A stretch of 64,000 bases of DNA from Albula goreensis (taxonomy: Eukaryota > Chordata > Actinopteri > Albuliformes > Albulidae). The notes beneath the pieces were generated by a model. That model worked only from the letters and a program-made list of their open reading frames with translations, had not been told where the DNA came from and searched no databases. The stretch lies in the NCBI GenBank assembly GCA_022829145.1, contig CM040752.1, forward strand, positions 33,519,586-33,583,585, read 5' to 3'. Positions 1,744 through 38,947 of the stretch are shown piece by piece (the first letter of the stretch is position 1; every line of letters begins with the position of its first letter). A program made the position numbers and the translations under genes.

Positions 1744-1857
1744 TTAGTCCTTGACAAGTCTGTAGACGTGGTACTGCGCCCCGTGTTCGCTTGTCGACAC
1801 CTCAAAAACAAACGCTATGCACAGCAAGGTCTCCTGGGTGTCCCTGTTTGTCACCAC
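1744..1857 (-). CDS. tead3: tead3 last coding exon, C-terminus of YAP-binding domain
   Basis: 38 codons including TAA. The exon begins [10 protein letters not shown] after a CTGTAG acceptor and ends VYRLVKD-stop. It follows in phase 0 from ...NFTILQ of exon 2343-2495. It encodes the last strands of the YAP/TAZ-binding domain. The Tyr in VYRL corresponds to the residue changed in human TEAD1 Sveinsson atrophy (Y421H), a known YAP contact. One oddity is GAQYH, where the human TEADs I recall have GAQHH. The His-to-Tyr change comes from a single codon, TAC. Confidence 0.95.
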
Positions 1858-4800
1858 CTACAGGCAGAGAAAGAGAACAGAGAACATGTACGTGCCTCTA
1901 CAAACAAACAAAGCAAAAACAAAGTATCATTTTATTCATAAAATAATGCTATGAAATATTTTGTAATTATTACATTTCAATGTCTTTCAACAGAAAGCAA
2001 AAGCCAATGACAAAATAGTCCAATATTTCTCATTAAATGTGTAAAAAATCTTATGAAATAGACAGAGTGCACAAGCAAAAATATAACCATATGCAACACC
2101 AGCCCAGAGTTAAACATTTTGACTCTGAGCTGGTGTTTCATGAATGGTTAATTAAACCATTTGGTATCTTCCCATGGATGCTATTTTATAATCATTATAT
2201 TCCCATTTTCTTTACTCCACAATTCTGAAAGCCCAATAGGAACTGTAATCCCTCAGTCCTGTGACCATAAAAGCCTCTGACAGTTTAAGAGGATGCACAA
2301 CAGAAGTTGTGCTCCTCTGAAATGTGTCCCCCAGGAAGTTACCTGTAGGATGGTGAAGTTCTCTAGAACGCTGTTCATCATGTACTTCTCCGGCAGGTGC
2401 TTGAGCTTATGGATGAAGTTGATCATGTACTCGCACATGGGGGAGCGATGAATCCGATATACGCACCTGCCCCCCTCCACCCGGGCATACTCCGTCTGCG
2501 CGGCCACAGGTCAAATAAAGTTAGCCTCCGCTAGTCTCTGACAGCGTCTCTAACAGTAGCATAACAGGTAGGAAACTGGTCGTCAAACACAGAGGGGGTG
2601 GGACCAGTTCCCTGTAGGTCATTGCTGTTGTACATTTTAGCAAGATACTTAAGCCAACTTTCTGCAATAAATGTTCATCCATATAAATGTATGGTGTGTA
2701 GAAATGTAAAATGGCTCCAATAGTTATTGTTAACAGGTTAACAACTAATAACACCTTTTTGGGGAGAAAAAAAACATTCGCCATTTGCACCCAGATTAAA
2801 GGAAAGAGAAAGTAAACTCACCTCGACTTTCTCGACCACCTGCTTGCCGAAGGAGCACACCTTGGTGGAAACGGTGATGGTCATGTTCTCGGCGCTGCTG
2901 TACTGGCTACTCACGCCGTAGAAGGAGCCGGGACCGTCCTGCATGCCGCTGCTGTTCAGGTCCGCCTGCAGGGGGAGCACTTCCAGGTCACCTCACACTA
3001 CTCAGCCAAGTGCCATTAACAAGCACTGCTCATGATAACCGAACAACCAACCAAGCAAATCATCAGAAATTCTGTTTTTGTATATCTGCAAACAAGTCAT
3101 TTTCATATATCTTTAAGCAGTACTCTACTGTTGGCTTCACACTGTAAAAATTATGCAGTTTGACATGGAAGATCTGCCACAATGGACAAATCTGGATCAA
3201 AAATATAAATGTCTCTGGGAAAAGCAGATCCATCGGTAAAACAGGCCACTGACCCAGAACTTGACCAGGAAGAAAGCGTTCTGAGGTCCCTTCTCGTACA
3301 GCTCCTTCAGGCCGCCCTTCTTTTCGGGGAACTTGTCGTAGATCTGCCGAATGTCCACGGCTTCCAGGAGCGGGTCGCTGTACGAGGGGTTGGTCTGTCC
3401 GATGTGAACGAACAGGTGCTTGCTATACTGTAGTGGGAAAGAGAGAGGGGAGGTTGAGTTTGTAGATATAATCAAACGCATTCACCCAAAATACACTTAT
3501 AATTTCAGCAGTGTTTTGTGTCATCACACTAAACTAATTTAGAACAATAAAAGGTACACCAATCTCTAGTGGGGTCCACAGGGTTTCACATCAAAGTAGC
3601 CTGAAGCAATCAGAATGTAAACCGTCACACAAATAACTAACATTTAGTCAGCGTTAACTCCCTCTATAAAAGGATTTGTTCAGAGAAATGTTAAAGACCC
3701 ACTTGACTTATCCTAATGTTTTTCGGGTGATACATCAAGTCTGGTATTTTTAAAATGGTTAACCACAGTCCACAATGATCCAAGTCTGAAATGTCACTGA
3801 AAGTATGAGCATTTTGACCATAAAAGTAAATTTTCTGACACACTCCAAAAAGTATTTACACAAGAATGCGCACTGTGGCCTACAGTCTTGCATATATCAC
3901 CTAAGGGCAAATGTAGACAGATTTTAGGCCTGTTGGGAGACAGTTCTGGAGAGCGGCACAGTGTATGAGAATGTGCATTAGAATAACAATAGGATGTCTC
4001 CGCATCCGACCACAGCCAAATGGCGCCTCCTTTTAATGACCTGCTATCTGCCGTCTGGGTTCCCCATTATCCTGTATGGGCCTCACTTTCTGGGGTTACC
4101 TGGTCATCACATGCTAATGTGTTCCCCTTAAACTGTATAAATGCTGACAACACACTGTAATCATGGAACATTTTGCTCCATGCTTGTGTTCCCGCGGCCG
4201 GCTGTGTAAATGAAGTATCTGTCTTCAGCTGCGAACATGGGATCCATCTCTTCATTAACAACATGGTAGTTTTACTCATTTTGAGAATTTTCTTAATTAC
4301 TAACAGGCCCCAGACTGCAATATTCAATTTTTCAGAGTGATCCAGGCTATAAAAATAAATGGCTGTGGCTTTGACTTTGGATGAGTATAACCTTGATTTC
4401 CCAGACAAAGCCATACAGTTTGGGAAGGGCTTTGACCAGCCTAAGAGGGCTGAAGGTGGGCGGGGCCGGGTGTGGCCATGCAGGGCATGGCGGAGTGTGG
4501 CTGGGCAGGGTGGGGCCGGGCTGGGCCGGGCTGGGGAGGTCAGGGCCAGGCGGGTCGCTCACCGTGTCCTGGTCTCTCTGCACCTCCATGAAGGCTGAGT
4601 ACTCGAGCATCCGCAGCTTGGAGGAGGCGATGGTGCGGTCCTGCCACACGGGGACCGCCGTAGCCGCGGGGGGGGGGGGTGGGCAGGGGCTCGTACGCTG
4701 CTACAGGAGGGAGGGAGGGAGACAAAGTACACAAAAAACACACTCAACACTCAAACCTGAATTCTTATTTTATGCTCATTAAAATGGACAGTAAGCTACT

Positions 4801-7800
4801 GTAAGAGGCTAATGTAAGAGGACCTTAGGATCTGTAAGAGGTTGCAGGTTCGATTCCCAGATGGGGCAATGCCCTTTTTTAGACAGACTGTAATGAAACA
4901 CAGTCAGTGCTCGTCATGGTTTGATAAGAGTCTCTGACGTACTAAACGTACTGAGATCGGGGGTCACCAACATGTCGACATTAGCGACCTTCCACCTGCT
5001 GTCCATTCAGGAGCATAGGTAACATGAACCCCCCCCCCCCCCCCACCAGCAACTCCACCATTTCTCCATTCTAGTAGCTCTAACAAAACTGCACAAGTCT
5101 GGTAGGTTAATTTCCCCTCATATTTATTCTATGGTGCCAAATCATTCTGTATAACAAATAACCAATCAACAGCAATAGCCAGCTCGTCTCATTTGATATT
5201 CAGTGCTTGGCTTACAAATGGCACTGCTTGGTACTCACTTGATATAGGAGTGGGGACCGGGCCTGGTAAATTGGGATATGGCGTCTGTGCAAATGGTTTG
5301 ATGCTGAAAATGAAGAGGGCAGTTGGTGAGAGATGACACCGCTGAGAGATTCTTTGATGCTGACTAGATTCTGCATTCTAGAAGGTCTTCAGATGTAAGA
5401 GTGTGTCAAACAATCAAAACAATTCACCTTTTTCCATTTGCCTCAACATAACAAAGAAAATTAAAGCACTGGCTGTCTCAAAAAATGGTCTGACTAACTA
5501 AAATAAATATGGAATACATTCTTTTTGACACACATATGAAGTGTTTTTTAATTTCTGTAATGTAATGACCCTCTTAAAACCGCCTCATTTCAAACAACAA
5601 ACAGTACGTTGTGCTAGATGGAAACCAGCAAATGCAGGGGTTTTCCAACAGTTTCAGAAACCCCGGCATCAGGTATACTCACTCCTGAGAGGGTCCAGGT
5701 TGTCCTGGGATTGGCCCAGGCCAAAACTGCTGACAAAAACACAGGGAAAGCAGTCAGTGGAGAATTTGCTGGCCTTGCAGCTACTACAAACAACACCCTA
5801 CAGAATCTGCCAACTCCTCCTGCTTGTATGAATTCATTCTGGACACTTTCCCTACAAAGAATGGAACGAAAGTCTTGAATTAACTATTTGCTATGTGCTT
5901 TATGCTTTAAATGCTGTTATGTTAAGTGTTTCATTTTTTATTTGCTATATGTTTTATATATTGTTACATGATATATGTTTTATTTATTATTTGCTAGATG
6001 TTATAATTTATATACTTTATATGCTGGTAAATGTTATGTTTTATTTCTTGTTTGTGATACATGGTAAGTCCTTCTCCCTGAGTATTATTAGCTGTGACCA
6101 GCAGCTCACAGGTCACTCTGTCGGTTTGTGGACCGACCAACTAACCGACAGAGCGACGGCCACAGTTTTCGCCCAAGGAGGCTGAAATTTGGCATGGAGG
6201 TCAGGTGTCTGAGTGTGTGTTTGTGGGGTTGTGTGTGAAGGTGTGTGTTTCTGTTCATGCCAGTTGGCTAAAAGGGGGGGCGTGGCAGTGGGAGTGGTCT
6301 GGTTTGTTTCCGGAGCTCACCCTTGGCGGGGGTGGGTATGGGGGCTGGGGCAGGGGGCAGCTGGCTCTTCATCACGCTGGCGGACACGATCTGCGCGGAG
6401 GACAGCGCCGCCATGTTCTGAAGGGCCTTGTCTTTAGAGGCCTGATCCTGTGGAGGTAGACAGTGACAGAGAGGGGACTCGACATGGGGTCTCAGCCAGC
6501 GCCCTTCTGAGCCAAACTACAGAGTGGGGTGCTTAACAAGAGCAGCAGAAGCCGAGGAAGCAGAAGCGGGAGTCGAGCAACTTCCCTTATTTCCACCTAT
6601 GACTTCATAACAAAATCCTAACATAAACATAATTATTAACTCTACATATCCCAGAGTGCTCAGCTGGCCAGTGGGATACATAAAGGAATGTTATTAGCTT
6701 GGAACATTCTTCAAATCAGGGCAATTAACATGACTGCAAAGACGACAGAAGCATGACACCAAAATGGGGAAAGAGGCGAAGAGAGAGGGTCACATGACAC
6801 GTGTGGGGGTAAAGCACAGCACAGTGGTGCTCACAGAACAATAACGATAGCCATGAGGAAAAAGGAGGAGAGGAAAGAGCAGGTACTTTTTTAACTTCTG
6901 TTCTATTCATAAGGTCGACACGGATGAGAAGCAGGAACAACCTTGTCTGTTTTCTGTGCCACGGCCTTTTCTGATTTACGGGTGTTCATTTTGGGACTCT
7001 GTAATTCCCTTCCACAGACCCCCCCCCCCCCTACTGTGCACTGCAACCGAAAAACAGCTCTGAATGCGGTTGCAAGAAACGTGAGTGCCGCTAACAACAA
7101 TAAAGAAAGCCAAACAACTGCTCGGTAGTCTGCTGAAGGATAAACACAGTTATAGTTTTATGACGCAGTTTAATGAACAAATGAATTATGTGTTTCAGAA
7201 CCCAAAGTTAGAAGTGAATCACCACAACACAGAGCCCTAAAAGTAAGCGTGGGCGTGTAAACATGTTTCATCCTCGCAGGCTTCTCCCTGACGCTCATAC
7301 CGCATGCTCTGACTAAGCACATTTAAGGCAATCCTCAGCAAGCCGCACTGTTGTGCTAGCATAAAACGATGATTGCTAAACAGCGCACACACATGCGCAC
7401 ACACACACTCACATGCACACTAACACTCACACGCACACACTCGCATGCAACCACACACACAAACACACACACTCCCCAAAAAACGCACACAGACACACTC
7501 ACTCACTCACATGCACACTAACACTCACACTCATACACACTCATACACACACACACACACACTGAGGTCCCAGTTTCTGCAGAGGGGACAGCACCAGCAT
7601 GGGGTTGAACCTGACCAGGCCAGATTTGAGGGAAAGGGTGGATCATGACTCACACAGCAGAAGGTTTGATTTTAAACAAACGGATGACCATATTCACCAT
7701 TCAAACTTCATTTAGACATTTTGAACTTGCTTCTGCTTCAAAACAAATATTTTTATCAAAACATTTTGAACAAATAATTAAAAAAATAAAAAAATTATAA

Positions 7801-10800
7801 GTACACATTTATGTTGTAAATATTTAGTATGACATGCAGATATGGCCAGGTCAAGCTGTTTGTTGTTGCAACACTATCAAAAACCGTTTGATAAATGGAG
7901 GCCTCCACCACACAAATGATGAAGTAACTATTGAAATATTCAAAACATAGATAAAACACACATCATCAGCAGCGCGTTCCAACGCTGTGGCTTTTCAAAT
8001 GCTAAACGCTGCTTTGAGAATCGCCTCTCAGCTCAGATGTTCAAAGGCTGAGCTATCACACACAAGGTCGTCCTAAGGTCACCGCTTCTCATAAACCCTC
8101 AAAGTGCTGATAAGATACTTGGTTCTTGTCTCAAAGGTGCGATCCGGGACACACCGTTTTGAGCGATCCACAAAAATTGAACACATCATTTATATGAGCT
8201 GGATCACTGGCCTTTCCTTCATTCAGATCCTCGCAGAAAGTTTGGTAGTACGGTAGGTTTTTGGGAGGTTGAGTTCTTCGACTCTTGCTTTAGTGGTAAT
8301 AGTTGATTCTACACAACCAATGGCACTGAGTTCAACACCATTCAAAAGTGCTTAAAAATTCTAAAATCAGTAACGCGTGTATAAAATATTCTGGATTGTG
8401 GTTTTAAGTACAATAGAAAAGACTGAGTTGTTCTATCTACAGCTATGTGCATCATATATTGCAGATAGTATTTATAATGTTCCTTTGACCCTCCCCAAAA
8501 TTTAGAACACCCAATATTTCCTTCAGGAGAGTACAGGCACACTTATGTTCTCCTCCAAAACAGGCAATACCAGCTGCAGTGTCTTTCCTCACTGCAGTCC
8601 ACAAGCTGAGCCTGCTACACATATTGAGTCAGAGAAGGACTGTTCCTGCTCAACTTTTCTGCAGGAAGGATATGGGCTCCTGACTGACCAATAGGGACAG
8701 AGGAAAGTGATGACATTCCAAATGAATTCCTCCAATCATGTAAAATCCTTCAGCCAATTACCTACCGTCCCATGGGGCTGCCACTATGTATATGGGGAGG
8801 TAGGCTGTGCTTTTGCAAGGAATACATATAACCACCAAACAATCACAGAACATATATAATATATAATAATATATTATATATAAAACAACATGATAGTGTA
8901 AGGTCAATAATGAATACTACCAATAGTAATAAAACAGAAGTAAGCCTTGGTGCAGTGCAGCAATTAATTCATCTAGCTTTGCCAAGGGGAGTGTGTTTCA
9001 GCTCTGTGATGCCACCAAAAATCCACCAGCTACACAGCAGACGAGTGAACCCCGCACACACTCAGCTTTCTGGCCATGCCAGGCGGATCTTTGCCAGGTT
9101 AATACGGAGGGGGGTGTTCCTGGATGTGGGGGAGGGGAGGATTGGAGCAGCAACAAGGGTGTTAGAGCACCCCGGCTGGGGAAGCGTGTGATTGGCCCAT
9201 GCTAGCACCGAAGCAGCCGATTGGCCAGGAGAGCAGACTGGCAGCGTGCCACAGGCTCAGCCAAGCAGGTGAAGCAGATCGGCAAAATCAAAAACAAACA
9301 CTTACCAGGTTCATGGCCTGAATCAAAGGAAAGAAAAGCCATTAGTGTGCTTTGTGATAATGTATACACATCGCATGATAAAGATTACGGGTAATTATTT
9401 CATCTGAAAGAAATTTAAACTGACAGCTAAAACAAAAAAGTGCTTTCACACACACTGGAGCAAGTTAATCTTCCCATGGGCCACATCCTACTCATAGTTC
9501 TTTACTTTAATCACATAGATTTGATTTAAAAAAAAATAAAAAAATAAAACAGTCAATTAAAAGGTGGCAAAGCAATGAAACTTTCTGACGTGTTCATCCT
9601 CCGGCACGCTACGGCTCTGCTCTTTACAAGTCTCGGATTCTCCCCATGGATCAATGTGCCGTAGCTTTTTCCTCATGATTCAGCTTTAAAGAATCACCTT
9701 TTTCCCACCAGGTTATGTTTATGTTATTAGCTTTGCAGTTTAAATGGCTACAGCTGATTCAGTTTTCATTGACAACCTTACCGTTTTATGATGTTTGCAA
9801 TCTTGTGGTTCTTGAGATTATTTCAGCCAGTGGGGGAAAAAAAATACACGTATACATTTATATTTTTGACTACTGTCTTCAGCGAACAGCTGAAAAGACG
9901 CCAGATCTCTGCACTAAACAATATTTCAATGCAAATGGGGAAGTGTTGTCTTCCTGAAAGTTAAAAAAGTGAACCACATGATAGCAAAGGATTCCAAACA
10001 TCACAAAAGAGTCTGACTCATATATGATCACATGACAGGGGACAAACAGAGTGGAATAATGAGAGAGAAGTAAACAAGATCCCTTCATGAGATGGAGATT
10101 CACAAAACTGTTTCTGAGGAGCGGTCGGACAGGCAGACAGAAGCTGGTGACTGAAGACACAGAATATGTGTGGTAACTCTTCTGTGACTGAATGCACAGA
10201 ATGCCAGCGGTAACTCTTCTGTGACTGAACGCACAGAATGCCAGCAGTAACTCTTCTGTGACTGAACGCACAGAATGCCAGCGGTAACTATTCTGTGACT
10301 GAACGCACAGAATGCCAGCAATGACTCTTCTGTGACTGAACACACAGAATGCCAGCGGTAACTATTCTGTGACTGAACACAGAATGCCAGCAATAACTCT
10401 TCTGTGACTGAACACACAGAATGCCAGCAGTAACTCCTGTGTGACTGAACACACAGAATGCCAGCAGTAACTCCTGTGTGACTGAACACACACAATGCCA
10501 GCGGTAACTCTTCTGTGACTGAACGCACAGAATGCCAGTGGTAACTATTCTGTGACTGAACACACAGAATGCCAGCGGTAACTCTTCTGTGACTGAACGC
10601 ACAGAATGCCAGCGGTAACTATTCTGTGACTGAACACAGAATTCCAGCAATAACTCTTCTGTGACTGAACACACAGAATGCCAGCAGTAACTCCTGTGTG
10701 ACTGAACACACAGAATGCCCGCGGTAACTCCTGTGTGACTGAACACACAGAATGCCAGCGGTAACTCTTCTGTGACTGAACACACAGAATGCCAGCAATA

Positions 10801-13800
10801 ACTCTTCTGTGACTGAACACACAGAATGCCAGCAGTAACTCTTCTGTGACTGAACACACAGAATGCCAGCAGTAACTCCTGTGTGACTGAACACACAGAA
10901 TGCCAGCAATAACTCTTCTGTGACTCACTCATGATTACAGTGGCCGTAAGGGAAAGGGTGGGGAGACTGAAATCTCAGCCTGTTTCAGCATGTTAATGTG
11001 TTTATGCCCAAAAGCACTTGTTAGTGTTCAAAAGGGTCCCCGCTCAAATCAGATTTACATTTCATTTTAGAAGTCATTTTATTTTGTCAAACTGTGCAGA
11101 TGTCATATTTAAATGTCAATCTTTTTCTTTTTTCAGATATTGTTTCAATAACAACATCAGCAGCTAATATCAACACACAAGTTTATGCACTGTATTTAAT
11201 TAACTTGACCGTTAAAAGCAGAACCATAATACTGGTATTGACGGACTGGACATTGAAAAGTTATCCTGTCACAAGCAACAGTCCAGCGTTTTATTTCCTT
11301 TTTGTTTTATGATTATTATTACTTCTTATGAGTCATGGGAACCCTGTGGAAGAAACACTTGAAGTACTTGAAGCTGAGGGAATGTTTGATGAAATAGTGC
11401 TAAAATAAGTGTGTTTAAGTGGTTTTCATCTTCCATTGTGTCAGAAAGGGGGAATTAACAGTATAAAGAGGTCATTCACGCAGCGGATTCCACGATAATC
11501 TCCGCTGAGCCGTGTGCTAAGTGTTAACATGTAGGTGCTCAATGTGTCCAGCAGTTTCACCCTGCGCACTATTCTTATAAAACACAAACTTCAGAGACCA
11601 TCGCAAGGCTAAAGCAAATCACATCCAGTGTAAACACAGCTTCGGACGCCACCAAGCTGGACTCGCTTTGGAAAATATAACACCATAACATGTTGATGCC
11701 CAGCTATATAATTAGCTGGTCTTGTAGCTCAGAGGTTACAGTGTAGTATAATGGTTAGGGAGCTGGGCTTGTAGCTCAGAGGTTACAGTGTAGTATAATG
11801 GTTAGGGAGCTGGGCTTGTAGCTCAGAGGTTACAGTGTAGTATAATGGTTAGGGAGCTGGGCTTGTAGCTCAGAGGTTACAGTGTAGTGTGATGGTTAGG
11901 GAGCTGGGCTTGTAGCTCAGAGGTTACAGTGTAGTAATAATGGTTATGGAGCTGGGCTTGTAGCTCAGAGGTTACAGTGTAGTATAATGGTTAGGGAGCT
12001 GGGCTTGTAGCTCAGAGGTTACAGTGTAGTATGATGGTTAGGGAGCTGGGCTTGTAGCTCAGAGGTTACAGTGTAGTGTAATGGTTAGGGAGCTGGGCTT
12101 GTAGCTCAGAGGTTACAGTGTAGTATAATGGTTAGAGAGCTGGGCTTGTAGCTCAGAGGTTACAGTGTAGTGTAATGGTTAGGGAGCTGGGCTTGTAACT
12201 CAGAGGTTACAGTGTAGTATAATGGTTAGGAGCTGGGCTTGTAGCTCAGAGGTTACAGTTACAGTGTAGTGTAATGGTTAGGGAGCTGGGCTTGTAGCTC
12301 AGAGGTTACAGTGTAGTATAATGGTTAGGGAGCTGGGCTTGTAGCTCAGAGGTTACAGTGTAGTGTAATGGTTAGGGAGCTGGGCTTGTAGCTCAGAGGT
12401 TACAGTGTAGTATAATGGTTAGGGAGCTGGGCTTGTAGCTCAGAGGTTACAGTGTAGTATAATGGTTAGGGAGCTGGGCTTGTAGCTCGGAGGTTACAGT
12501 GTAGTGTAATGGTTAGGGAGCTGGGCTTGTAGCTCAGAGGTTACAGTGTAGTGTAATGGTTAGGGAGCTGGGCTTGTAGCTCGGAGGTTACAGTGTAGTA
12601 TGATGGTTATGGAGCTGGGAACTAGCTTAGAGGCTGCAGGTTTATTTCCCATGTAGGGCAGTGCAAAAGATGCGTACTGCTTCATTAAATATCAGTGAAT
12701 GTATAAAGTGACAGTGCGTGAAAACCAAAGCTGTGTAAATGGCTGTCTGAATGTAATGTAACGCTGGTGAAAACTCAAAACCTCAAAGATTCTGGATCAT
12801 TTTCAGCAAAACTCAAGAATACACCAAAGCTGTGCAATCATTTGGAAAAAAAAACACTACGTGAAGTAAACATATTTCTTAAAATCGTACGTAATCTGCA
12901 GGCATTTTCTGTTGCTTGAAAGATTCAAATTATTCCAAATTATTGGATCCGAGTACACAGCATAGTTCATAGGAGACACCCCCTGATCTGGGGTGTGTTG
13001 TGTAGATTTCAGTCTCCAGTTTCTCAGGACAGAAAGAGAACCACAGACACACTGGTGGAGTGGTAGGGGGTAGGGGGTAGGGGGTAAAGAAAGGAGGAAA
13101 GATATGGGTTAGTGAGCACAGGAAAGCCTTCTGGCGGTAGCAATGGCGGGTTAGCGACAGCGCGTGGATGGGGAGGGGGTAAGGGGACAGGACACACTGC
13201 ACGAGACGCAGACGCAAGCAGGCCGCAGTCCAGTTCACCCAGCCACTAACCCCAATCGCGCAGGCCACGCATCACAAAGCTCCACAGTGACTGGCATAAA
13301 CACTGGCGCCCTGGGACTCCTATTAAATCTTCAGCTAACAGCACTGTGTGCTAGCGGGGAGTGACTCGTCGAGATGGACACATCCAATTAAAACTGAATA
13401 TCTCACTTCCTCTTTTCCTACTCTCTCTCTCTTCTTCCTGTAGACATTCATAATTCCTCTTCAGGTATAAGGACAGCTTTGTGCCATTACTAAATAGAGT
13501 GTGACTTGGCACCTAAACGGAGATACTGATTTCTTAGTTTAATATTATACTATGAGATCTAAAGATGAATATTTTCTCAATGTCATTAAGCAGCTACTGG
13601 TCTGGTGAAACCTTGAGGTAAATCAGACAAAAATTCCTGTCCCAGTCAAACTTTATTCTACTGTACTTCAATATCACCAAACTTTATCGGTAAAAGTTGG
13701 TATGCTTGAACAAACTCTACTGCCCTCTACTGGCCAAATTAGAAAAGGTCATAAAGTCTGCCATCCAAAATTTGATCGGATAGAATTCTGTGCTTTTTTC

Positions 13801-16800
13801 TCTGCTTATTTTTTGATCTAACATGTTCTGTATATTTTTTTAAATGTAGATAAAATGAATACTGTAATACAAAATATAAAATGTAAGAAATTATATTTTA
13901 AACAGTTTGCTCCTTCAGTTTACAAGACTTCTCTTCAACAAACATTTTCCTCAACAAATAGCAAATAAACACCAATAGCCAATTTAAAAATACATCCAAG
14001 TTTTGTACTTTGATTACAAAAACCCAGCCTGTGCTAATACTCACAGAACACTGGGAAAAACCTCAGGTTTCCTCAGGTAGGATACTCTGTCAATGTAGTG
14101 GTGAGAATAAAGTAAAACTCTTCGGGCTTGCTGACAAAGGGTTACAGCTCAGTCAGTCACAGTTCTTGCCTGTGAAGATCCAGCTGGCACAGCAAGCAGC
14201 CTATATATTAATGCTATCACAAGACTAAAACATCAGACGCATGCTGACAGAGTGCCACGCGATAGCCGGACAGCATTATTTTCTGCTGTTGATCTCAGAA
14301 TCACAGCCAGTGAGTTTTCCCCTGACCGCGCACTAAGACCTTAAACTGTGGCCTCTCAGTGGCGCCCCCTGGTGGGTTAATTCTACTGCTGCAGCTCTGA
14401 TTGGTTAGCTCAAAGCCAAGCTTCTATCAAAGCCCCGCCCACCCGCAGAGAAGCGCATACCTTCAGCTTTGACTGTATCTCGCGAGACTTTCTCCGGGCA
14501 AGAACCTGCAAATGGCTAGAAACCTGCAGAAAAAAAGAGCAAAAGAGGGGGGGAAAGGAGAGGAGAGGGAAAACAAAAAGGAAGAGAGGAGAGAAGGAGG
14601 AAGAGAGAAGAGAGAAGAAAAGCCGTAACCAAGAGGAAAGAGATGCCCAGGCAAACCCTAGCCGCGACATGGCGGGCGACACCTACCTTGATTCCCGCCT
14701 GGTACTCCCGAACTTTCTTCCGCGCTAACACCTGTATGTGACTAGACACCTGAGGGGGCGTGAAACAGTTTTAAACACATGACACAATGAAGCACTGCAT
14801 GTCCCCATCTCACCCGCCTCTGTAACAAGACCAGAGTAACAGAATGACAAAACACTTTCTGCCCAGTTCTCTGGGCTCTGCCATGTGCTCTGGGCTCAGG
14901 ACACGCTGTGAAAAACAGTTTAACAAACAAACTCCACAAATATGGGGGAGGAAAAAAGAGTTAAATTCTTTTTTGAACATTTTTTCTGCTTGGTTGTTGT
15001 CCAATTAAGAGATGATTAGATTCAGACCGGTCCAAATACTTGAGGTAACGGCCCGGTTTCAGCTGAACCGCAGCTTGCTGCGTCCTCAGTTTTGAATAAT
15101 GAATTTAAGCGAGACGTTTGTTTCTCAACCCATACATAACGTGGGCTACAGAGTCTTTGAAACTAAGGAAATATGTTTTTCGGAAAACAAAGCAAAACAA
15201 AAGAAAAAAAAAACTGACACTAATTACTCCCAAGTTAGGAGCAGACTAGTAGTTAGAGCAAATCCGTATTGCAACATTTTTAGTTCTCATTCTAAAAAAT
15301 GCGCACCAAAGTATTTTTGAGATGCCACTACAAGGGAGGACTTCTGCAAGCGTCAGGCCCACACGAAGGGAGACGGGCCAGACAGCTCAGCTGTGGCTCC
15401 TAAAATACATCTGAAGAATTTCAAATAAATTAAATTCTGCTTCACGTCAGCAAAGATCAAGAAATGAACCTAATTCCTCGGGAAACTTGTTGCCTTGTTA
15501 TCAGTTTGCATCTAATGAAAAGGGCAGTATTTTCCTCCAAGTATGAGAGCAGGGGTACCGTAAGGGCACTTTTCGCATTGCTCAAACATATAAATAAATA
15601 TAGATACAGAATGCAGATATAGAAGTACTAGACTGGTTGTTCTGTGTGATGCAATTCAAAATTGGCTAACCACAAATGTCACTCCTCAAATACTTCAATG
15701 GCATTGCTATGCTCTTCCAAACCACACAGCTCCTACACGTGAGTGGTCCCATCGATATAAATAACTGGGATCCATCCCATAATCTAAACAGAGAATGTGA
15801 TAGTTAAGAGAACATATACCGTTATCTGACTATCCATCAATCCTGTTTCATTAAATTTTCCTGAAGATTTATTTTCAACTGAGGAGTGCTTTTTAAAAGC
15901 CAAATTCTTCAGATAAGCATAAATGATGCTCGTCTCTAAATTTATTCAGTTAATAAATATCGTGCATGTAAGGGGGGAATAAAATCGGCTCGAGAGAGGA
16001 ATAAAACGTCCACCTGTTTAATGCATCACACCAGCATGTTTTTTTTTTTGATTTGGCAGGAACAGGAAGTAAATTACTTCAGTAAAGGCAGAGAGGTCAC
16101 ATGACCGATGGTCTAAGAGCTTTGACCTACGCCAGCGGCTAGTGAGGCAAGCTGTACTTCAGTCCCAGTTTCCACACCATGACCCAAAAAGTCTTATTTT
16201 TCATTCTCCTATATAAGTATTCATGCCTAATAAGATTTTTGTTGTCTTTTGCTTGATGTTTGGTTTTATTATGGCTTGATTAATATCATATTTGGGTGTT
16301 TTTGAATTTGGGTAGTGTGCTCTGTAAGGCCCTTAGGGTTTTTTGACCTCTTCAGCACATATTTTGTTCCATTTTTGATCTGTCATATGTATTTCACCAT
16401 GTTTTGAGAGTGGCTAAACTAAACTAAAATAAATGAAGGAGCGGCTGATCCAGCGCAAGCGCAGCTGACCCCAAAACAGCACAGATTCTGTTCCCGCCTC
16501 TGCTGGGGTCATTTGAGTTTGTCGAACACTGGCTCTGGGTCAGTTGAGGACAGTCTCTCTAGGTCAGTTGAGGACGGTTTGTCCATAAATGTGTAGAACA
16601 ACTGGTCTTAATGACCTGTAGATCTACACATTTATGGACACCTCCAAGCGTACAGAAGTATCTCTTCCTAACTGTGACCGCTAGAGGAGATGCGGACACA
16701 GCATCGGGAGCTAGCACATGAGTGCTTATATAGGGGGAAAAAACAGACAAAGAATCACGAACATGGTGTTAGTTACCTGTTTTCTTGTGCGGGTTTTTCC

Positions 16801-19800
16801 TGTCCGTAACTTGATATATCTTGCTATCAGCTCATTGCGACCTGTAACACAGAAGTGGGCGCTGTCAGTTCAAGCGTCTCTCATGTCTGAGGAGTCGGCA
16901 GGAATACAGCTTCATTTGTACTGCCTTTGACATCTGCAATCCATCAGGACTCACAGCCATGTGGGGAGCGTCAAAGAAAACTATTCATCATTTATTTATT
17001 TATTTTTACCAAGTAAAGCTTGGTGGACTTGTGTAAAACACCCACTTCCACGCCCCAAGACTCCCGAGTCTGTGCGCAAATGCTTTTTCATGCAATGACC
17101 ACTAGATGGTGCTACAACAATACTTTGCATTCATCTTACTTGGAAATTCAAGTAATCTAGACATTCAACAGGGTGAACTTTTTTTCAACACAGCGATGGG
17201 ATATAAACACCTAAGGGTACATACTATATATTACAAGTCACCAATCGAACACATTTAGTCTTTTTAGGAGCATACGCTATTTGATTTTACAAACAGACAT
17301 AATTCTTAAGAGCATAATATATTCAATTTCAGAACGGCAAGAGCATATTATAAAAGGCATGTCTGCTTAACTGGGGTGAAATTGAGTATACTGAAAGAAA
17401 ATTGTGCTGTAATTTAAAGTCAGTTCTGCGTCCCAAGCATGTGTCGTTAAACAGGCAAAGTGTGTCTGGGTTCCAGTCTCTGAGCCTGCATACCTCACAG
17501 TACAGCTCTGTGGACTATCAGAGCGAAAGCAAAACGGCTCAAGTGTAAACATACAAGGAAATGAGCAAGAGCCCGTTTTACCCTGCACCAAACCTAATTC
17601 AGAATTTTTCAAGTTTTCGTTATTTTTTTTATGTTTAAATTTACATATTTTTAAAGTTACATCACGTTTACATTTGAGACAATTGCACTGTGCTGGAAAA
17701 GGTAACGACGAGTACATGGACGAAGAAGAAAACAGAACTCCCAAAAAGAATTGAAAACAGGTTCAGAGCTTTGATACCAAGACTTTTTTTTTTTTTAAAT
17801 AATTCACCTCTCAGACACCAGAGTAATTAAGTGCTTTGTACTGTGGCACAGCTGGGACTGTCCCCAGTTCAGTAAGACAGAACAATCTAGAACTGTGTTT
17901 TGCCCAGACACACCGAGGACATCTGAAAGGCAGTCACAATGGGAGAATATTTAAAATTGTAAAAGTGAAAACATATTGATTTGCTTTGACTGTGATCATG
18001 TGTAAGAGGAACTGAGGGGCCAGACTAGCGCTGACAGCTCACTGATCTATCAGGGAGTAAAAACAGCACAGCACACTGGCCCACTTCAGACTGACTGTGT
18101 TTATGCAGCTCTGCAGCACTTGTCAACAGTACACTATCTTTGCTGGGATGGGCTTAAATTTAACGTTGTTTTCGAGAGGAATCTACACTTTACCAATCAG
18201 TGCCTATCCACAGGTGAGAAAGTCTTCACTGATTTCAGAGGGAGAGGAGCCATGGAGAGGGTGGTGTGTGGTGTGTGTGTGTGTGTGTGTTTGTGTGCGT
18301 GAGTATGTGTATTTGTGACCTTGGGAACAGCTGTGCAGAGGGGCAGCCATGAATCTGACACACCTCCACACCCTGGGAAGCAGCAGGAACTGGCTGTGCC
18401 GTCCTGAGCCTGACAGCCTGTGCGACTGACAACAGACCCCAGCCCCCCACCCCATCCCTCCCTCCAGCCCGACACCCAGGCGGCTCACGCCAGCCCATGG
18501 AAACTTCTCTAGCTTTACATTTAGGGTAGCTGTGCGCACACAGGAGCTTCAGATAAGGATACAAAGAGGAAAGAGCGGAGCCGAAATGGATCCCGGCCCG
18601 CTGCGCCTTTGCCAGGCCCGTGTGTAACTGTAGACTCTCCCCTCTGTTGTGTGGATTTGCATGCTACCCCAGATGGCCCTTTTTATTATGAATAATGCAA
18701 AATGAGAGAAACAACTGGGCCATTGACACGCCGAGACTGGGACCGCACTCTGAAAGCAACACAACCAAAAATGGAGAGATTATTTACAAAAAAAAAAAAA
18801 AAAAATACACACACACTCACTGTATGTGCACGCACCCACACACACACTCAATAGCGGTGCCGCCTGATGCCTCAGAAATCCACACAAACGCCCTATGGAG
18901 TGATTTGCACATTCTCTCTCAAAACTGACCGATACAAAACACCGCCATGACACAGGGCAAGTAACGGCTTTCTCCTGCTTTTTCATGTTTCAGTGCCACT
19001 TACAGAGCTGTTTATGTTTGAAATATATACGCATGTGTTTCACAGAGGTGGAACAAACCAACTCAAAGTAAATAAAAAGTAGGTTAGCGAGGGGGTGAGA
19101 ATAAGAGGGGCTTGACCTTTTCCTCTGGCTGCTCCTTACCCCCCAACCTCCTTTCAGTGGGGCACAACGCAGCTACCATACAAGTACAGAGCGCTGCGGG
19201 CCTTCTCCAGCGGCCCCGCTGCCTCCGCCCACACCGGGGCTAGGCCACGCCCGCCTCTGTGCCTCCACATTCCTCCCATACCACGCTGCCCCCTCACGTA
19301 TGTGCAAGCCCGGCTGATTGGCCCGGAGACCTGCGCAGGCCGTCTGCGCGACCTGCATGTGTGCGCAGACGCCCCCTGCGATCGGCTTTGTCCGCGGACA
19401 CAAAACAAAAGCCCTCCATCCCCCCTCCCCTCTCTCGCCCCCCCTTCCCCCGATCGCTCCATCGTGTGTTACTAACGGACAGGGGGCACCTGCTGCGATC
19501 TGTCCAAGGAGAGGGTGGGGGTGGGGAGGGGGTTGGGGGGAGCAACACAACAATAACCCCACGCTCTCACACCCCCCAGCTGCTCCCTCTGTCCCACACA
19601 GCCCTGCCCGAGCCCTCTGCCTTCAGCACATACACCGTAGAGGAAACAGCGTTTTTTTTACCCACAAACCCCTTCAACACACGCAGCGTTACCCTGGAAA
19701 GAGACGGCACGTTTCCACTTAGGGATCATGAAATCGGCATTCTGACCCCCCCCCCCCACCCACCCCCAGCCAACAGCTCTGTAAGATTTCTGTAAACGTT

Positions 19801-38600: not shown

Positions 38601-38947
38601 TATTATTGTCATTTTATTTAATTTGTTGTTATGTTGTGGTAATGCTACCTTGGTTATAAAATCTGTGGTCACCTCGGTAACCCCGAGGACTGAAGCCCAC
38701 CGGAGGGAGGAAGAGATGGGACAGACTGAGTGGGGGTTCACTCACCGTACATCTTTCCCTCGTCTGAGAGGATGATCTTCCTCCGGCCGCAGGGGGGGTA
38801 GATGGCCAGCGCCTCCTGGAAGCTCTGCTCGATGTCGGGGCTCCACACCCCCTCCGCGTCCCCATCCATGGTCTTATCCAGCCCGTCGGCACCATCATCC
38901 CGCCCCTCCTCCGGGCTGCCGTTGGCGCTCCAATCGTTGGACGCAAT
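1744..38947 (-). CDS. tead3: TEAD3-like TEA-domain transcription factor, whole split coding region
   Basis: Spliced gene read exon by exon on the minus strand. TEAD proteins are nuclear factors that bind M-CAT (CATTCC) sites through the TEA domain and recruit YAP/TAZ and VGLL co-activators as the output of the Hippo pathway. The paralogue call rests on segments I recall as typical of TEAD3: MASN start, REYQAGIK followed by [35 protein letters not shown], and [14 protein letters not shown]1, 2 and 4 differ at these places. All twelve segments have AG acceptors and GT donors. The total is about 1300 nt plus a small unplaced piece, in line with about 435 aa for human TEAD3. Two defects are visible: a one-base excess in a C run (4563-4700) and one out-of-phase junction (6321-6447 to 5683-5726). 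Whether this is the tead3a or tead3b duplicate cannot be decided here. The promoter and non-coding first exon were not found. Confidence 0.9.
1858..2342 (-). other. tead3: tead3 last intron
   Basis: 485-bp intron with donor GTAACT and acceptor CTGTAG. The sequence is AT-rich with nothing else recognisable. The neighbouring small introns 2496-2821 and 2966-3253 are equally plain. Confidence 0.8.
2343..2495 (-). CDS. tead3: tead3 exon, YAP-binding domain core
   Basis: 51 codons from TEYARVEGG to NFTILQ, phase 0 at both ends, acceptor CGCAG and donor GTAACT. It contains the near-invariant TEAD segments [24 protein letters not shown] and [10 protein letters not shown], which form helices of the immunoglobulin-like fold that binds YAP/TAZ. 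This exon alone fixes the family. RIHRSPM and TILQ fit TEAD3/TEAD4 better than TEAD1 (RINRSPM, TILL). VEGGRCVY differs from the human LENGRFVY, normal divergence for a fish copy. Confidence 0.97.
2822..2965 (-). CDS. tead3: tead3 exon with the conserved palmitoylated Cys
   Basis: 48 codons, phase 0 at both ends, acceptor CTGCAG and donor GTGAGT. It starts [13 protein letters not shown] and ends KQVVEKVE. The sequence KVCSFGKQ carries the Cys that is autopalmitoylated in human TEADs and lines the central lipid pocket. [10 protein letters not shown] is the TEAD3 form; TEAD1 has FYGVTSQYES. The exon encodes central beta strands of the YAP-binding domain. Confidence 0.97.
3254..3427 (-). CDS. tead3: tead3 exon, start of YAP-binding domain
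   Basis: 58 codons from [10 protein letters not shown] to AFFLVKFW, phase 0 at both ends, acceptor CTACAG and donor GTCAGT. It contains [20 protein letters not shown] and the [12 protein letters not shown] segment. [12 protein letters not shown] is the TEAD3 version; TEAD1 has LFGKGPQ and TEAD4 LFERGPS. A plus-strand frame across the same bases is a shadow. Confidence 0.97.
3428..4562 (-). other. tead3: tead3 intron
   Basis: 1135-bp intron between the exons ending QRDQDT and beginning YSKHLF. The stretch 4453-4552 is very G-rich on the plus strand (repeated GGGCCGGGCTGG), so the transcript has a C-rich run just after the donor GTGAGC. The rest is AT-rich with no other feature. Confidence 0.75.
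4563..4700 (-). CDS. tead3: tead3 linker/YAP-domain exon with a C12 frame conflict
   Basis: 138 nt, acceptor CCTGTAG and donor GTGAGC. The 3' part reads [16 protein letters not shown], then [16 protein letters not shown], ending in phase 0 and matching human TEAD3 closely. The previous exon ends with one base (A). Entering with it, the 5' part reads T-A-Y-E-P-L-P-T-P, which matches the human SYEPLAPLP region. The two halves are joined by a run of 12 C (plus-strand G run near 4668-4679). With 12 C they lie in different frames; 11 or 14 C would join them. The exon is therefore one base out in this sequence, by assembly error, polymorphism or a true frameshift. The acceptor is a tandem TAGCAG, so the exon could also start at 4697 without changing the frame. 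Confidence 0.9.
4701..5238 (-). other. tead3: tead3 intron with SINE fragment and C tract
   Basis: 538-bp intron. It holds a short SINE-like tRNA fragment near 4840-4872 and a run of about 14 C near 5031-5044. No extra exon was recognised. Confidence 0.7.
5239..5303 (-). CDS. tead3: tead3 Pro-rich linker exon (IKPFAQ)
   Basis: 65 nt, acceptor TTTTCAG and donor GTGAGT. It reads (D)[11 protein letters not shown] followed by [10 protein letters not shown] and leaves one base, A, for the next exon. The first base completes the GAC Asp codon of the previous exon, giving the family motif SQDIKPFAQ. Human TEAD3 has DIKPFAQPAYPIQPPLPP here. This is the flexible linker between the DNA-binding and co-activator-binding domains. 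Confidence 0.93.
5683..5726 (-). CDS. tead3: tead3 linker exon (FWPG...GQPGPSQ)
   Basis: 44 nt reading [14 protein letters not shown](D), donor GTGAGT, joining cleanly to the next exon through the split Asp codon. TEAD1 has FWPGMIQTGQPGSSQD at this place. The acceptor is a tandem CAGCAG, so a Gln could be added (start 5729). The frame requires a phase-0 entry, but exon 6321-6447 ends in phase 1. The exon itself is secure; the upstream join is not. Confidence 0.88.
5727..6320 (-). other. tead3: tead3 intron, possibly hiding a small exon
   Basis: 594 bp, AT-rich in 5880-6060. The phases of the flanking exons (1 and 0) imply a missing exon whose length is 2 modulo 3, or a different donor. I scanned for one and found none I would support. 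A short inverted repeat (CTGTCGGTT...AACCGACAG) lies at 6118-6152. Confidence 0.5.
6321..6447 (-). CDS. tead3: tead3 exon ([17 protein letters not shown]...)
   Basis: 127 nt, acceptor CCACAG and donor GTGAGC, starting in phase 0 and ending in phase 1. It reads [17 protein letters not shown], then [13 protein letters not shown], then [12 protein letters not shown]. Human TEAD3 has DQVSKDKALQSMASMSSAQI and VSASVLQNKF here. The conserved SAQIVSA segment follows the TEA domain; the Pro/Ala tail starts the linker. The AMNL microexon (9306-9317) joins directly in front of the first codon. Confidence 0.95.
6448..9305 (-). other. tead3: tead3 intron
   Basis: 2.86-kb intron. It contains a C run at about 7020-7030, a (CA)n-rich stretch at about 7383-7562 and an AT-only dinucleotide stretch at about 8856-8882. 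I see no exon, tRNA or transposon ORF. Confidence 0.7.
7383..7562. repeat. Imperfect (CA)n microsatellite
   Basis: CA-rich tract interrupted by ACTCAC and CATGCA units. Its ORF is a His/Thr repeat and not a gene. Confidence 0.85.
9306..9317 (-). CDS. tead3: tead3 12-nt microexon encoding AMNL
   Basis: On the minus strand GCC ATG AAC CTG is preceded by ...TTCAG and followed by GTAAG, an ideal donor. It is phase 0 at both ends, so inclusion adds exactly Ala-Met-Asn-Leu between ...AGIK and DQASK. Human TEAD3 has KAMNLDQ at the same place, which confirms both the exon and the paralogue. It is too short to be found by ORF scanning. The 5-kb and 2.9-kb introns on either side make it isolated; such microexons are often tissue-regulated, which is inference here. 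Confidence 0.93.
10146..10925. repeat. 37-bp minisatellite, about 21 copies
   Basis: Tandem array of a 37-bp unit built from CTTCTGTGACTGAAC plus ACACAGAATGCCAGC plus a short AGTAA joint. Copies vary mainly at GCACAG/ACACAG, CTTCTG/CCTGTG and GCAGTAA/GCGGTAA/GCAATAA. It lies inside a tead3 intron. Because 37 is 1 modulo 3 and the minus strand of the unit lacks stops, all three minus frames stay open and give long Ser/Val/Cys repeat ORFs, which are artefacts. Confidence 0.95.
11714..12619. repeat. 47-bp satellite of a tRNA-SINE head, about 19 copies
   Basis: Unit: CTTGTAGCTCAGAGGTTACA followed by GTGTAGTATAATGGTTAGGG and AGCTGGG. Copies differ by few substitutions (TATAATGG/TGTAATGG/TATGATGG) and rare indels, one being a duplicated TTACAG near 12254. 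GTAGTATAATGGTTAGGG looks like the A-box part of a tRNA. The same words head the dispersed SINEs at 22782, 23049 and 58570, but there they run on into a B box (GGTTCGATTCC) that the satellite units lack. The array ends in a degenerate SINE body at 12620, so the array probably grew from the 5' end of that insertion. Confidence 0.9.
12620..12750 (+). mobile_element. tRNA-derived SINE body at end of the satellite
   Basis: After the last satellite unit comes CTAGCTTAGAGGCTGCAGG with a decayed B box, then ATGTAGGGCAGTGC, then a tail related to GTGTAAATGGCTGTCTGAA and ATGTAATGTAA. This order of tRNA-like head, body and tail matches the other SINE copies in the window. It is degenerate and no longer mobile by itself. 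Confidence 0.65.
14461..14523 (-). CDS. tead3: tead3 alternative exon 3b, TEAD1/4-like recognition-helix exon
   Basis: 63 nt, phase 0 at both ends, acceptor TTTCTGCAG and donor GTATGC. It reads [12 protein letters not shown] followed by SREIQSKLK. This is the third-helix segment of the TEA domain, which contacts DNA, and its basic end. The second half resembles TEAD4 (REIQAKLK) or TEAD1 (RDFHSKLK), not TEAD3. It has the same length, phase and role as exon 14687-14749, 163 nt upstream; 14 of 21 residues are identical. One copy would normally suffice, so they are most likely mutually exclusive. It is intact, with no stop and good splice sites, so I do not call it a pseudoexon. A ~100-nt polypyrimidine tract lies directly before its acceptor. 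Confidence 0.88.
14524..14686 (-). promoter_or_regulatory. tead3: 163-nt intron with long polypyrimidine tract between alternative exons
   Basis: Donor GTAGGT, acceptor TTTCTGCAG. Plus-strand bases 14527-14625 are almost pure purine, so the transcript carries about 100 nt of C/U, mostly CU and CUU runs, just before exon 3b. PTB-family proteins bind such tracts and repress neighbouring exons (established knowledge). A role here is inference. Confidence 0.6.
14687..14749 (-). CDS. tead3: tead3 alternative exon 3a, TEAD3-like recognition-helix exon
   Basis: 63 nt, phase 0 at both ends, acceptor CCCCTCAG and donor GTAGGT. It reads [12 protein letters not shown] followed by [10 protein letters not shown] recall human TEAD3 as [12 protein letters not shown] plus VREYQVGIK, one difference in 21, so this is the orthologous exon. 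Joined after ...TRTRKQ of exon 16777-16841 and before AMNL it gives the standard TEAD3 sequence. It completes the TEA domain with the DNA-recognition helix and overlaps the region reported as a nuclear localisation signal. Confidence 0.95.
14750..16776 (-). other. tead3: tead3 intron
   Basis: 2.0-kb intron upstream of the alternative pair. It is AT-rich and contains the perfect 18-bp inverted repeat at 16580-16640, 136 nt downstream of the donor in transcript sense. No further TEA-type exon was seen. Confidence 0.75.
16580..16640. repeat. Perfect 18-bp inverted repeat (hairpin)
   Basis: Left arm TGTCCATAAATGTGTAGA (16580-16597), right arm TCTACACATTTATGGACA (16623-16640), 18/18 complementary with a 25-nt loop. 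Just before it GGTCAGTTGAGGAC occurs twice (about 16538 and 16562). It lies in the intron before the alternative exons and would form a stable stem in the tead3 pre-mRNA. It could instead be a foldback relic. Confidence 0.85.
16777..16841 (-). CDS. tead3: tead3 exon 2, TEA-domain middle
   Basis: 65 nt, acceptor TTACAG and donor GTAAC. It reads (G)[21 protein letters not shown], identical to the vertebrate TEA-domain consensus (helices 1-2 region and basic [10 protein letters not shown]). Entry is phase 1, completing the Gly codon of ...KMYG, and it ends in phase 0, ready for either VSSH exon. A plus-strand frame across it is a shadow. Confidence 0.97.
20510..20790. other. Candidate conserved non-coding element in intron 1
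   Basis: A repeat-free block of balanced composition with several CpGs and AT-rich factor-site-like words (ATAAAGGCC, GACCAATTAAGAG, TGAATGAATAG), sitting within low-complexity sequence. Such blocks in large introns of developmental regulators are often enhancers. No conservation data were available, so this is inference only. Confidence 0.25.
21180..21840. repeat. Polypyrimidine tract of CTCTCTGTCGGT units
   Basis: About 660 bp of almost pure C/T on the plus strand, starting as (CTCC)n and (CTTC)n and becoming irregular repeats of CTCTCTGTCGGTCTCTCTGC, unit about 20-26 bp. It yields a 293-codon Ser/Leu/Pro ORF that I reject as a gene. Confidence 0.9.
22782..22985 (+). mobile_element. tRNA-derived SINE copy
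   Basis: Head GTATGATGGTTATGGAACTG (A-box side), then GGTTCGATTCCCAGGTGGGG (clear B box), then a body with TGTACCCTTAGGCAAACTAC and CCAGTAAAGAT, and a tail ending TAACTCTGGATAAGGGCAC. The tail resembles the TCTGGATAAGAGCGTCTGC-type ends of teleost SINEs mobilised by L2-type LINEs. It is the best-preserved copy here. Confidence 0.8.
23049..23262 (+). mobile_element. Second tRNA-derived SINE copy
   Basis: Starts GGAGTGGTTAGGGAGATGGG, continues with GAGGTTGCAGGTTCACTTCC (B-box remnant) and AAGGCACTTAGACTGAATTG, and ends near GAGTCTACTAAATGCCTGAA, the expected SINE tail. It lies in the same orientation about 65 bp after the copy at 22782-22985, more diverged in the B box. Confidence 0.75.
23838..24900. 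repeat. Very long (CA)n microsatellite block
   Basis: Two (CA)n blocks (about 23838-23960 and 24093-24898) separated by 130 bp of unique sequence. The second is a mosaic of CA runs with CTCTAACAC and CTCACTCTAAC interruptions. All ORFs here are His/Thr or Val/Cys repeats. Confidence 0.95.
26833..27122. repeat. 14-bp minisatellite (GGATGGAACACACA / GAATGAAGCACACA)
   Basis: About 20 units of 14 bp alternating between GGATGGAACACACA and GAATGAAGCACACA, so a 28-bp higher-order period is visible, with a few deletions (AACACAGAATG). Overlapping ORFs on both strands are artefacts of the repeat. Confidence 0.92.
28080..28113. repeat. (GT)n microsatellite
   Basis: About 17 GT dinucleotides inside the large intron, preceded by CA/TG-rich interrupted sequence. 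Confidence 0.9.
28375..28498. repeat. (GA)n/(GGA)n purine tract
   Basis: About 120 bp of pure purine on the plus strand with GGAGGAGGGAGA blocks. In the tead3 transcript it is a pyrimidine tract. The Arg/Glu or Ser/Leu ORFs across it are not genes. Confidence 0.9.
31645..31820 (-). mobile_element. tRNA-derived SINE copy, minus strand
   Basis: On the minus strand GCAGTGTGATGGTAAGGCAC (head) is followed by CAGTTCCCAGGTGGGGCACT (B-box side), GAGCAAGCCACTCATCCCAG, and the tail GAGTTACTCTGGAAGAG then ATCTGCCAAAATG. The order and spacing match the plus-strand copies at 22782 and 23049. Confidence 0.7.
32130..32566. repeat. (CA)n-rich block with AATCACACAAA units
   Basis: Degenerate ACACAATCACACAAA repeats from 32130 grade into pure (CA)n at about 32485-32566. 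Nearby ORFs are low-complexity. Confidence 0.9.
34795..34990 (+). mobile_element. Diverged tRNA-derived SINE copy
   Basis: GATTGCGGGTTCAAATCCTG (B box) is followed by GTTGGGCCGCTGTGCCACCG, a body, and the tail AGAGTGTCTGCTAAGCAG. The head is decayed. It is probably a relative of the other SINEs with a different body. Confidence 0.6.
35487..35620. repeat. (CA)n microsatellite
   Basis: Interrupted CA/GCACACAC tract ending in about 20 pure CA units (35582-35620). Confidence 0.9.
36105..36193. repeat. Short foldback element with perfect 18-bp arms
   Basis: Left arm TACCAAGAAAACAACCAA (36105-36122) and right arm TTGGTTGTTTTCTTGGTA (36176-36193) are perfectly complementary around a 53-bp centre containing CCCTGACGAAGGCACG and TTTTGCCGATATATT. 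The arms and compact length suggest a miniature foldback relic. I could not assign a family. Confidence 0.75.
36478..36504. promoter_or_regulatory. Inverted pair of M-CAT (TEAD-binding) motifs
   Basis: AACATTCC (36478-36485) and GGAATGTT (36497-36504) form a perfect 8-bp inverted pair 11 bp apart. CATTCC is the core M-CAT element bound by TEAD proteins. Being inside the large intron of a TEAD gene suggests possible autoregulation, but 6-bp cores are common by chance. Confidence 0.35.

Follow-up and report, generated by a model that had tools for sequence, protein, structure and literature searches.

Two short, similar exons are located next to each other in a TEA-domain gene of the 64-kb DNA stretch analysed here (the window, a part of contig C12 in a 932-Mb genome). 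They raise the question of whether the gene holds two alternatives for the same segment of its DNA-binding domain, how old these alternatives are, and what the choice between them would change. The minus strand of the window carries an intact-looking tead3 gene, with the following features.

38746..38854, minus strand: N-terminal TEA-domain exon, which ends at 38746 (38854 is the end of the Pfam match only, not the 5′ end of the exon).
16777..16841, minus strand: upstream (second) TEA-domain exon, ending ...TRTRKQ in phase 0; boundaries placed by eye.
14749-14687, minus strand: exon A, RKKV type, 63 nt, phase 0; homologous A exons in loci L013, L009 and L011.
14524..14686, minus strand: A-B intron, 163 nt, with a long pyrimidine tract.
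14625..14631, minus strand: candidate branch point TGGTTAC, its branch adenine at intron position 61 (14626 in the window).
14523-14461, minus strand: exon B, RRKS type, 63 nt, phase 0.
9306..9317, minus strand: microexon of 12 nt (AMNL), located after the A/B pair.
6319..6447, minus strand: downstream exon, beginning DQASKDKAL; 3′ end approximate.
1744..3427, minus strand: region of the YAP-binding-domain exons, introns included, down to the stop codon at 1746-1744.

The Pfam profile scan gives PF01285 matches over the cut-off at two exons of the window. The first YAP-binding exon has a score of 114.6 bits against the solved chain of TEF-5/TEAD3, compared to 109.7 bits for TEF-3, 107.6 for TEF-1 and 86.8 for TEF-4. 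Judged by its sequence, the gene encodes a TEAD (TEA-domain) factor of the TEAD3 type. Inclusion or skipping of the AMNL microexon, together with the A/B choice, would allow several combinations for this region. The intron that separates exon B from the microexon contains two minisatellite arrays, one at 10147-10925 (37-bp unit, 21.2 copies, 90% matches) and one at 11714-12619 (47-bp unit, 19.1 copies, 94% matches).

Exons A and B have no stop codons, are in phase 0 at both ends and are flanked by canonical splice dinucleotides. The sequence before exon A is ...ccccctcag and that after it gtaggt; for exon B they are ...tttctgcag and gtatgc. The two exons share 38 of 63 nucleotides and 14 of 21 residues. 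They score 101 and 97, respectively, in a BLOSUM62 scan of the six frames of the 64-kb window, where the next best stretch scores 33. These scores, together with the same ordered pair at three of the five other TEAD loci (see below), exclude a chance origin of the A/B pair. No further copies of A or B were found above the thresholds used, in the window or within ten 10-kb loci. Adjacent, equal in phase and homologous, the two exons for this one segment have the arrangement of a mutually exclusive homologous pair. A preliminary description of this DNA had proposed two splice-flanked exons of 63 nt and phase 0, and these are indeed intact and located in the tead3 gene. Its suggestion that they are two alternatives for one segment is supported as well, both being apparently functional by their conservation.

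The phases of the neighbouring exons, and the length and phase of A and B themselves, keep transcripts with A, B, both or neither in-frame. NMD would therefore force no exclusivity, since double inclusion and double skipping are both in-frame.

A Pfam TEA scan of the genome gives twelve exon matches, which resolve to six loci, this count being a lower bound. For the five loci other than the window, the 20 kb downstream of the TEA exon was scanned in all frames. Exon A followed by exon B is found at four of the six TEAD loci, namely the window, C14 (tead3), C15 and C1 (both tead1). Locus types are based on the first YAP-binding exon for C14 (TEAD3), C15 (TEAD1) and C25 (TEAD4), while similarity places C1 with C15 and C23 with C25. 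In both C15 and C1, exon A ends with RKKVREIQAAIK and exon B with RRKSREFHSKLK. The tead4-like loci, C23 and C25, have a single exon of the B type, ending with RRKAREIQVKLK and RRKAREIHVKLK, respectively. The teleost whole-genome duplication is the probable source of both locus pairs, that of tead1 and that of tead3. Zebrafish has been reported to have Tead1a, 1b, 3a and 3b (PMC6759317). The donor of exon B begins with GTATGCGCTT in four loci (14451-14460 in the window; L013, L009 and L011), which is off-consensus, and there is shared sequence beyond it.

A degenerate A exon in tead4 was considered and rejected. The best protein score in the introns between the TEA exon and exon B is 8 for both L015 (~1.4 kb) and L017 (~0.95 kb). 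A score of 10 in L015 corresponds to the TEA exon itself, and real A exons score at least 87 under a similar scan. At the DNA level, none of eight comparisons with the tead4 introns exceeds the shuffle maximum, and one (C25 against the window) equals the 95% shuffle level.

The reading that we favour, with a probability of roughly 0.7, is that A and B are ancient, tandem-duplicated, mutually exclusive exons. The pair would have arisen before the split between TEAD1 and TEAD3 and been kept by purifying selection in tead1 and tead3, with tead4 having only B. The sequences themselves show the pair, its recurrence, its common origin, its conservation and the motif common to the introns. Transcript use, mutual exclusivity, the default choices and the consequence for PKA are parts of this reading that we infer.

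The adenines of the A-B intron in the window are located at positions 3, 17, 28, 43, 61 and 162, the last being that of the acceptor AG. The branch point of exon B must therefore be within 61 nt of the A donor, and at least 102 nt away from the B acceptor. The motif TGGTTAC is common to the A-B introns of all four loci, and its adenine is 61 nt (window), 58 nt (C14), and 50 and 50 nt (tead1) from the A donor. It agrees with the TACTAAC consensus at four of seven positions, with the first pyrimidine of yUNAy missing. The two tead3 introns have no AG between TGGTTAC and the B acceptor. For tead1, the distance between this candidate and the acceptor is 41 nt, an AG follows it after 2 nt, and the introns contain other candidates. 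The C14 intron has two more candidates, at 113 and 118 nt, which would allow A-B splicing. Around the motif, the introns of tead1 and tead3 show modest homology: in the four comparisons, the observed score is reached by 24, 23, 127 and 66 of 2000 shuffles.

The usual distance between branch point and acceptor is 19-37 nt, and in exons 4a/4b of OGDH a branch point near the upstream donor enforces exclusive splicing, with a proposed limit of ~50 nt (PMC7969005). Distant branch points have been associated with long pyrimidine tracts and with exons that exclude each other (PMC2991248; PMC1431707), and AGs close after the branch point can be bypassed (PMC2991248). The arrangement of the TEAD introns appears consistent with steric exclusivity, which it supports but does not prove, the distances being borderline compared to the ~50-nt limit.

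For factors that could bind around the pair, RBFOX motifs (GCATG) within 300 nt give one occurrence at one locus, and hence no shared RBFOX site. Each tead3 A-B intron has 13 TCTT/TTCT pyrimidine sites, compared to 1 and 0 in the tead1 introns, which are shorter. With so few sites in tead1, a PTB model for both genes is not supported.

The same introns bear on the alternative of a regulated cassette. One exon would be constitutive (A in tead3 and B in tead1) and the other sometimes added, giving an A+B product with a repeated helix. Every combination of A and B being in-frame would permit this. The additional candidates in C14 are far enough from the A donor, and the tead1 candidate is at a near-normal distance from the acceptor. 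PMC3158048 also lists an in-frame skipped exon in human TEAD1, which it describes as an internal repeat downstream of the TEA domain, the exon not being specified there. However, if the recognition helix were repeated, the linker behind it would be pushed out of place, and in the window every adenine before the acceptor is within 61 nt of the A donor. We therefore consider a cassette unlikely, although it deserves to be weighed.

It is far less probable that exon B of tead3 and exon A of tead1 are unused relics of an old duplication. In favour of this, the acceptor of exon A is poor in tead1, with 6 and 10 pyrimidines in 17 positions at the two loci, ending with ggag, compared to 13 and 13 at the tead3 loci. 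The exons themselves argue against decay. The splice dinucleotides are intact at all eight A and B exons of the four loci. The protein segment of exon B is identical at 21 of 21 residues between the window and the second tead3 locus (C14) with four synonymous differences, as is that of exon A between the two tead1 loci with two. Exon A of tead3 has seven differences between loci (one amino-acid change) and exon B of tead1 has one (no change), so that one of 14 differences in A and B alters an amino acid. Compared to random mutation, the P values are 0.0016 for tead3 A, 0.0053 for tead3 B, 0.064 for tead1 A and 0.26 for tead1 B; the tead1 tests are individually not significant and are underpowered, because almost nothing has changed in these exons.

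Third positions are also more conserved in the pair than in the only two control exons used, which come from the same genes (the adjoining TEA exon and the first exon of the YAP-binding domain). Of 84 codons in A and B, 12 have a third-position difference, compared to 58 of 158 in the controls (Fisher P = 1.4e-4; tead3 alone, 0.019; tead1 alone, 0.0015). Exons that carry splicing signals commonly show such constraint at silent sites. The tead1 A-B intron (L009:2018-2108 and L011:6037-6127) has a length of 91 nt, which is ordinary for introns in fish, and is identical at 86 of 91 positions between the loci, compared to 49-74% for four 100-nt flanking blocks. The tead3 A-B introns show 112 matches in 166 columns, and their four flanking blocks 39-55%. 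On the basis of the exon comparisons, both copies look selected.

The maximum-likelihood tree of the ten exons places the four A exons on one side and the six B exons on the other. This A|B split has an ultrafast bootstrap of 92, below the 95 mark of the tool, and an SH-aLRT of 98, and it is present in 90% of 200 bootstrap trees; the tree is based on 63 columns from one genome. The A exons of tead1 and tead3 are 2-3 residues apart and their B exons 3, compared to 7 between the two exons of any one of the four genes. As the A exons of both genes group apart from all B exons, the duplication predates the separation of TEAD1 and TEAD3. The simplest history would be a single duplication before this split, after which tead4 lost A. 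Such dating is relative and is based on one genome, as is the conservation of both copies, seen in four of the six TEAD loci and in the A|B split. Independent duplication in tead1 and tead3, with the likeness due to convergence, is scarcely credible, as the use of one genome with 63 columns per exon and the modest intron homology leave it some room but the A-A and B-B distances are well below the A-B distances and the A|B split separates the two types.

The ancestral origin suggested in the preliminary description is thus supported, the A/B duplication being older than the two genes. Other parts of that proposal need to be revised. The pair is not a TEAD1/4-type option retained in tead3; instead, it was inherited by both tead1 and tead3, and both tead1 loci hold it. 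Exon B had also been described as TEAD1/4-like. Over its 21 residues, the tead3 B exon (REIQSKLK) has 3 differences from the tead1 B exon (REFHSKLK), and 3 and 4 from those of the tead4-like loci. Among the human proteins, its nearest counterpart appears to be TEAD2, so that TEAD2-like would suit it better than TEAD1/4-like.

Exons A and B of tead3 differ in seven residues, at positions 5, 11, 13, 16, 18, 19 and 20 of the segment. Positions 16-20 are past the end of the constructs in the DNA complexes 5nnx and 5no6 (TEAD1 and TEAD4), while 5gzb covers the whole segment. An altered base preference is therefore not the first expectation. The different DNA-recognition surface envisaged earlier is less likely than was implied, since the VSSH.Q half shows only an I to L change and four of the seven A/B differences are beyond the ends of 5nnx and 5no6. 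The solved TEA domains returned by searches (TEAD1 and TEAD4) are of the B type in five of five distinct sequences.

The clearest change between the two exons is RRKS in B versus RKKV in A. A PKA-type RRxS motif is found in all four B exons of tead1 and tead3, in none of the four A exons and in neither of the two tead4-like B exons. By count, the serine of RRKS in exon B is presumably equivalent to Ser102 of human TEAD1, which we take to be a PKA site that lowers DNA binding. The human reference proteins presumably have the A-type segment in TEAD3 and the B-type segment in TEAD1. The strength of the A acceptor would fit with this, and suggests that the default is A in tead3 and B in tead1. A literature search on TEAD, PKA and Ser102 gave matches that are on other subjects by title, and a term search in a TEAD review (PMC5876656) found neither PKA nor S102.

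With A and B as mutually exclusive exons, either choice would give a complete TEA domain, with a nearly identical VSSH.Q half. The swap would affect the third helix in its C-terminal half, together with the extension of this helix. Splicing from A to B would be disfavoured by a B branch point only ~50-61 nt from the A donor, as in TPM1 and OGDH, such that a transcript would contain A or B. The winner would be set by the strength of the A acceptor, which is better in tead3 and poor in tead1, and by factors binding around the pair. Exon B would carry the PKA-type R-R-K-S, in place of which exon A would put R-K-K-V, making the DNA-binding domain phosphorylation-sensitive or not.

We propose, as a possible extension, that the textbook contrast of RRKS.. 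in TEAD1 with RKKV.. in TEAD3, where this helix ends, goes back to a splice choice that became frozen. In the ancestor of the vertebrate genes, the TEA domain would have switched between a kinase-sensitive and a kinase-blind form. TEAD1 would have taken B as its default and TEAD3 would have taken A, TEAD4 would have dropped A, and tead1 and tead3 may still switch in some tissue.

Tandem homologous exons with a short intron and a branch point (here a candidate) near the upstream donor are likewise known for OGDH 4a/4b, tropomyosin and alpha-actinin. In tead3, the likeness extends to a long pyrimidine tract and an AG-free zone. On the other hand, the candidate distances of 50-61 nt in the TEAD genes are at or above the ~50-nt limit, and the swapped TEAD segment is located in the DNA-binding domain.

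For TEAD3 itself, Azakie et al. in 1996 reportedly described two chicken isoforms, DTEF-1A and DTEF-1B, whose splicing differs at the C-terminal end of the TEA domain. Their lengths are said to be 433 and 432 residues. They may represent the same event as A/B, although equal-length exons alone leave the one-residue gap unexplained.

Splicing is likewise known to alter TEAD function through skipping of TEAD4 exon 3 (RBM4, giving TEAD4-S) and through the RBFOX2-regulated 12-nt exon 6 of TEAD1 (PMC5867882, PMC10167241). In those cases, the DNA-binding domain is lost or four residues are gained, respectively, whereas the A/B choice would swap one 21-residue segment for another. In human TEAD1, exon 5, the neighbour of the 12-nt exon 6, is reported to be alternatively included, with SRSF1 promoting its inclusion (PMC10167241). 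By its position, exon 5 could be of the A or the B type, the cited passage giving neither sequence nor length. No description of an A/B pair common to TEAD1 and TEAD3 was found in the paper listings and main texts searched. TEAD is unmentioned, by term search, in the main texts of PMC4465641, PMC5740500, PMC7969005, PMC2991248, PMC5224494 and PMC1431707. Mutually exclusive homologous exons as a kind are already known, and other TEAD splicing switches are in print; the interest here is in the shared origin, the proposed opposite defaults and the swap of a kinase site.

The Hippo pathway reaches DNA through the TEADs, which are also drug targets. If two TEAD genes each make two DNA-binding domains, with and without a kinase site, then constructs of a single isoform, antibodies and binding data would cover half of the system. 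Differences between the paralogues, if this is true, would in part be differences between isoforms.
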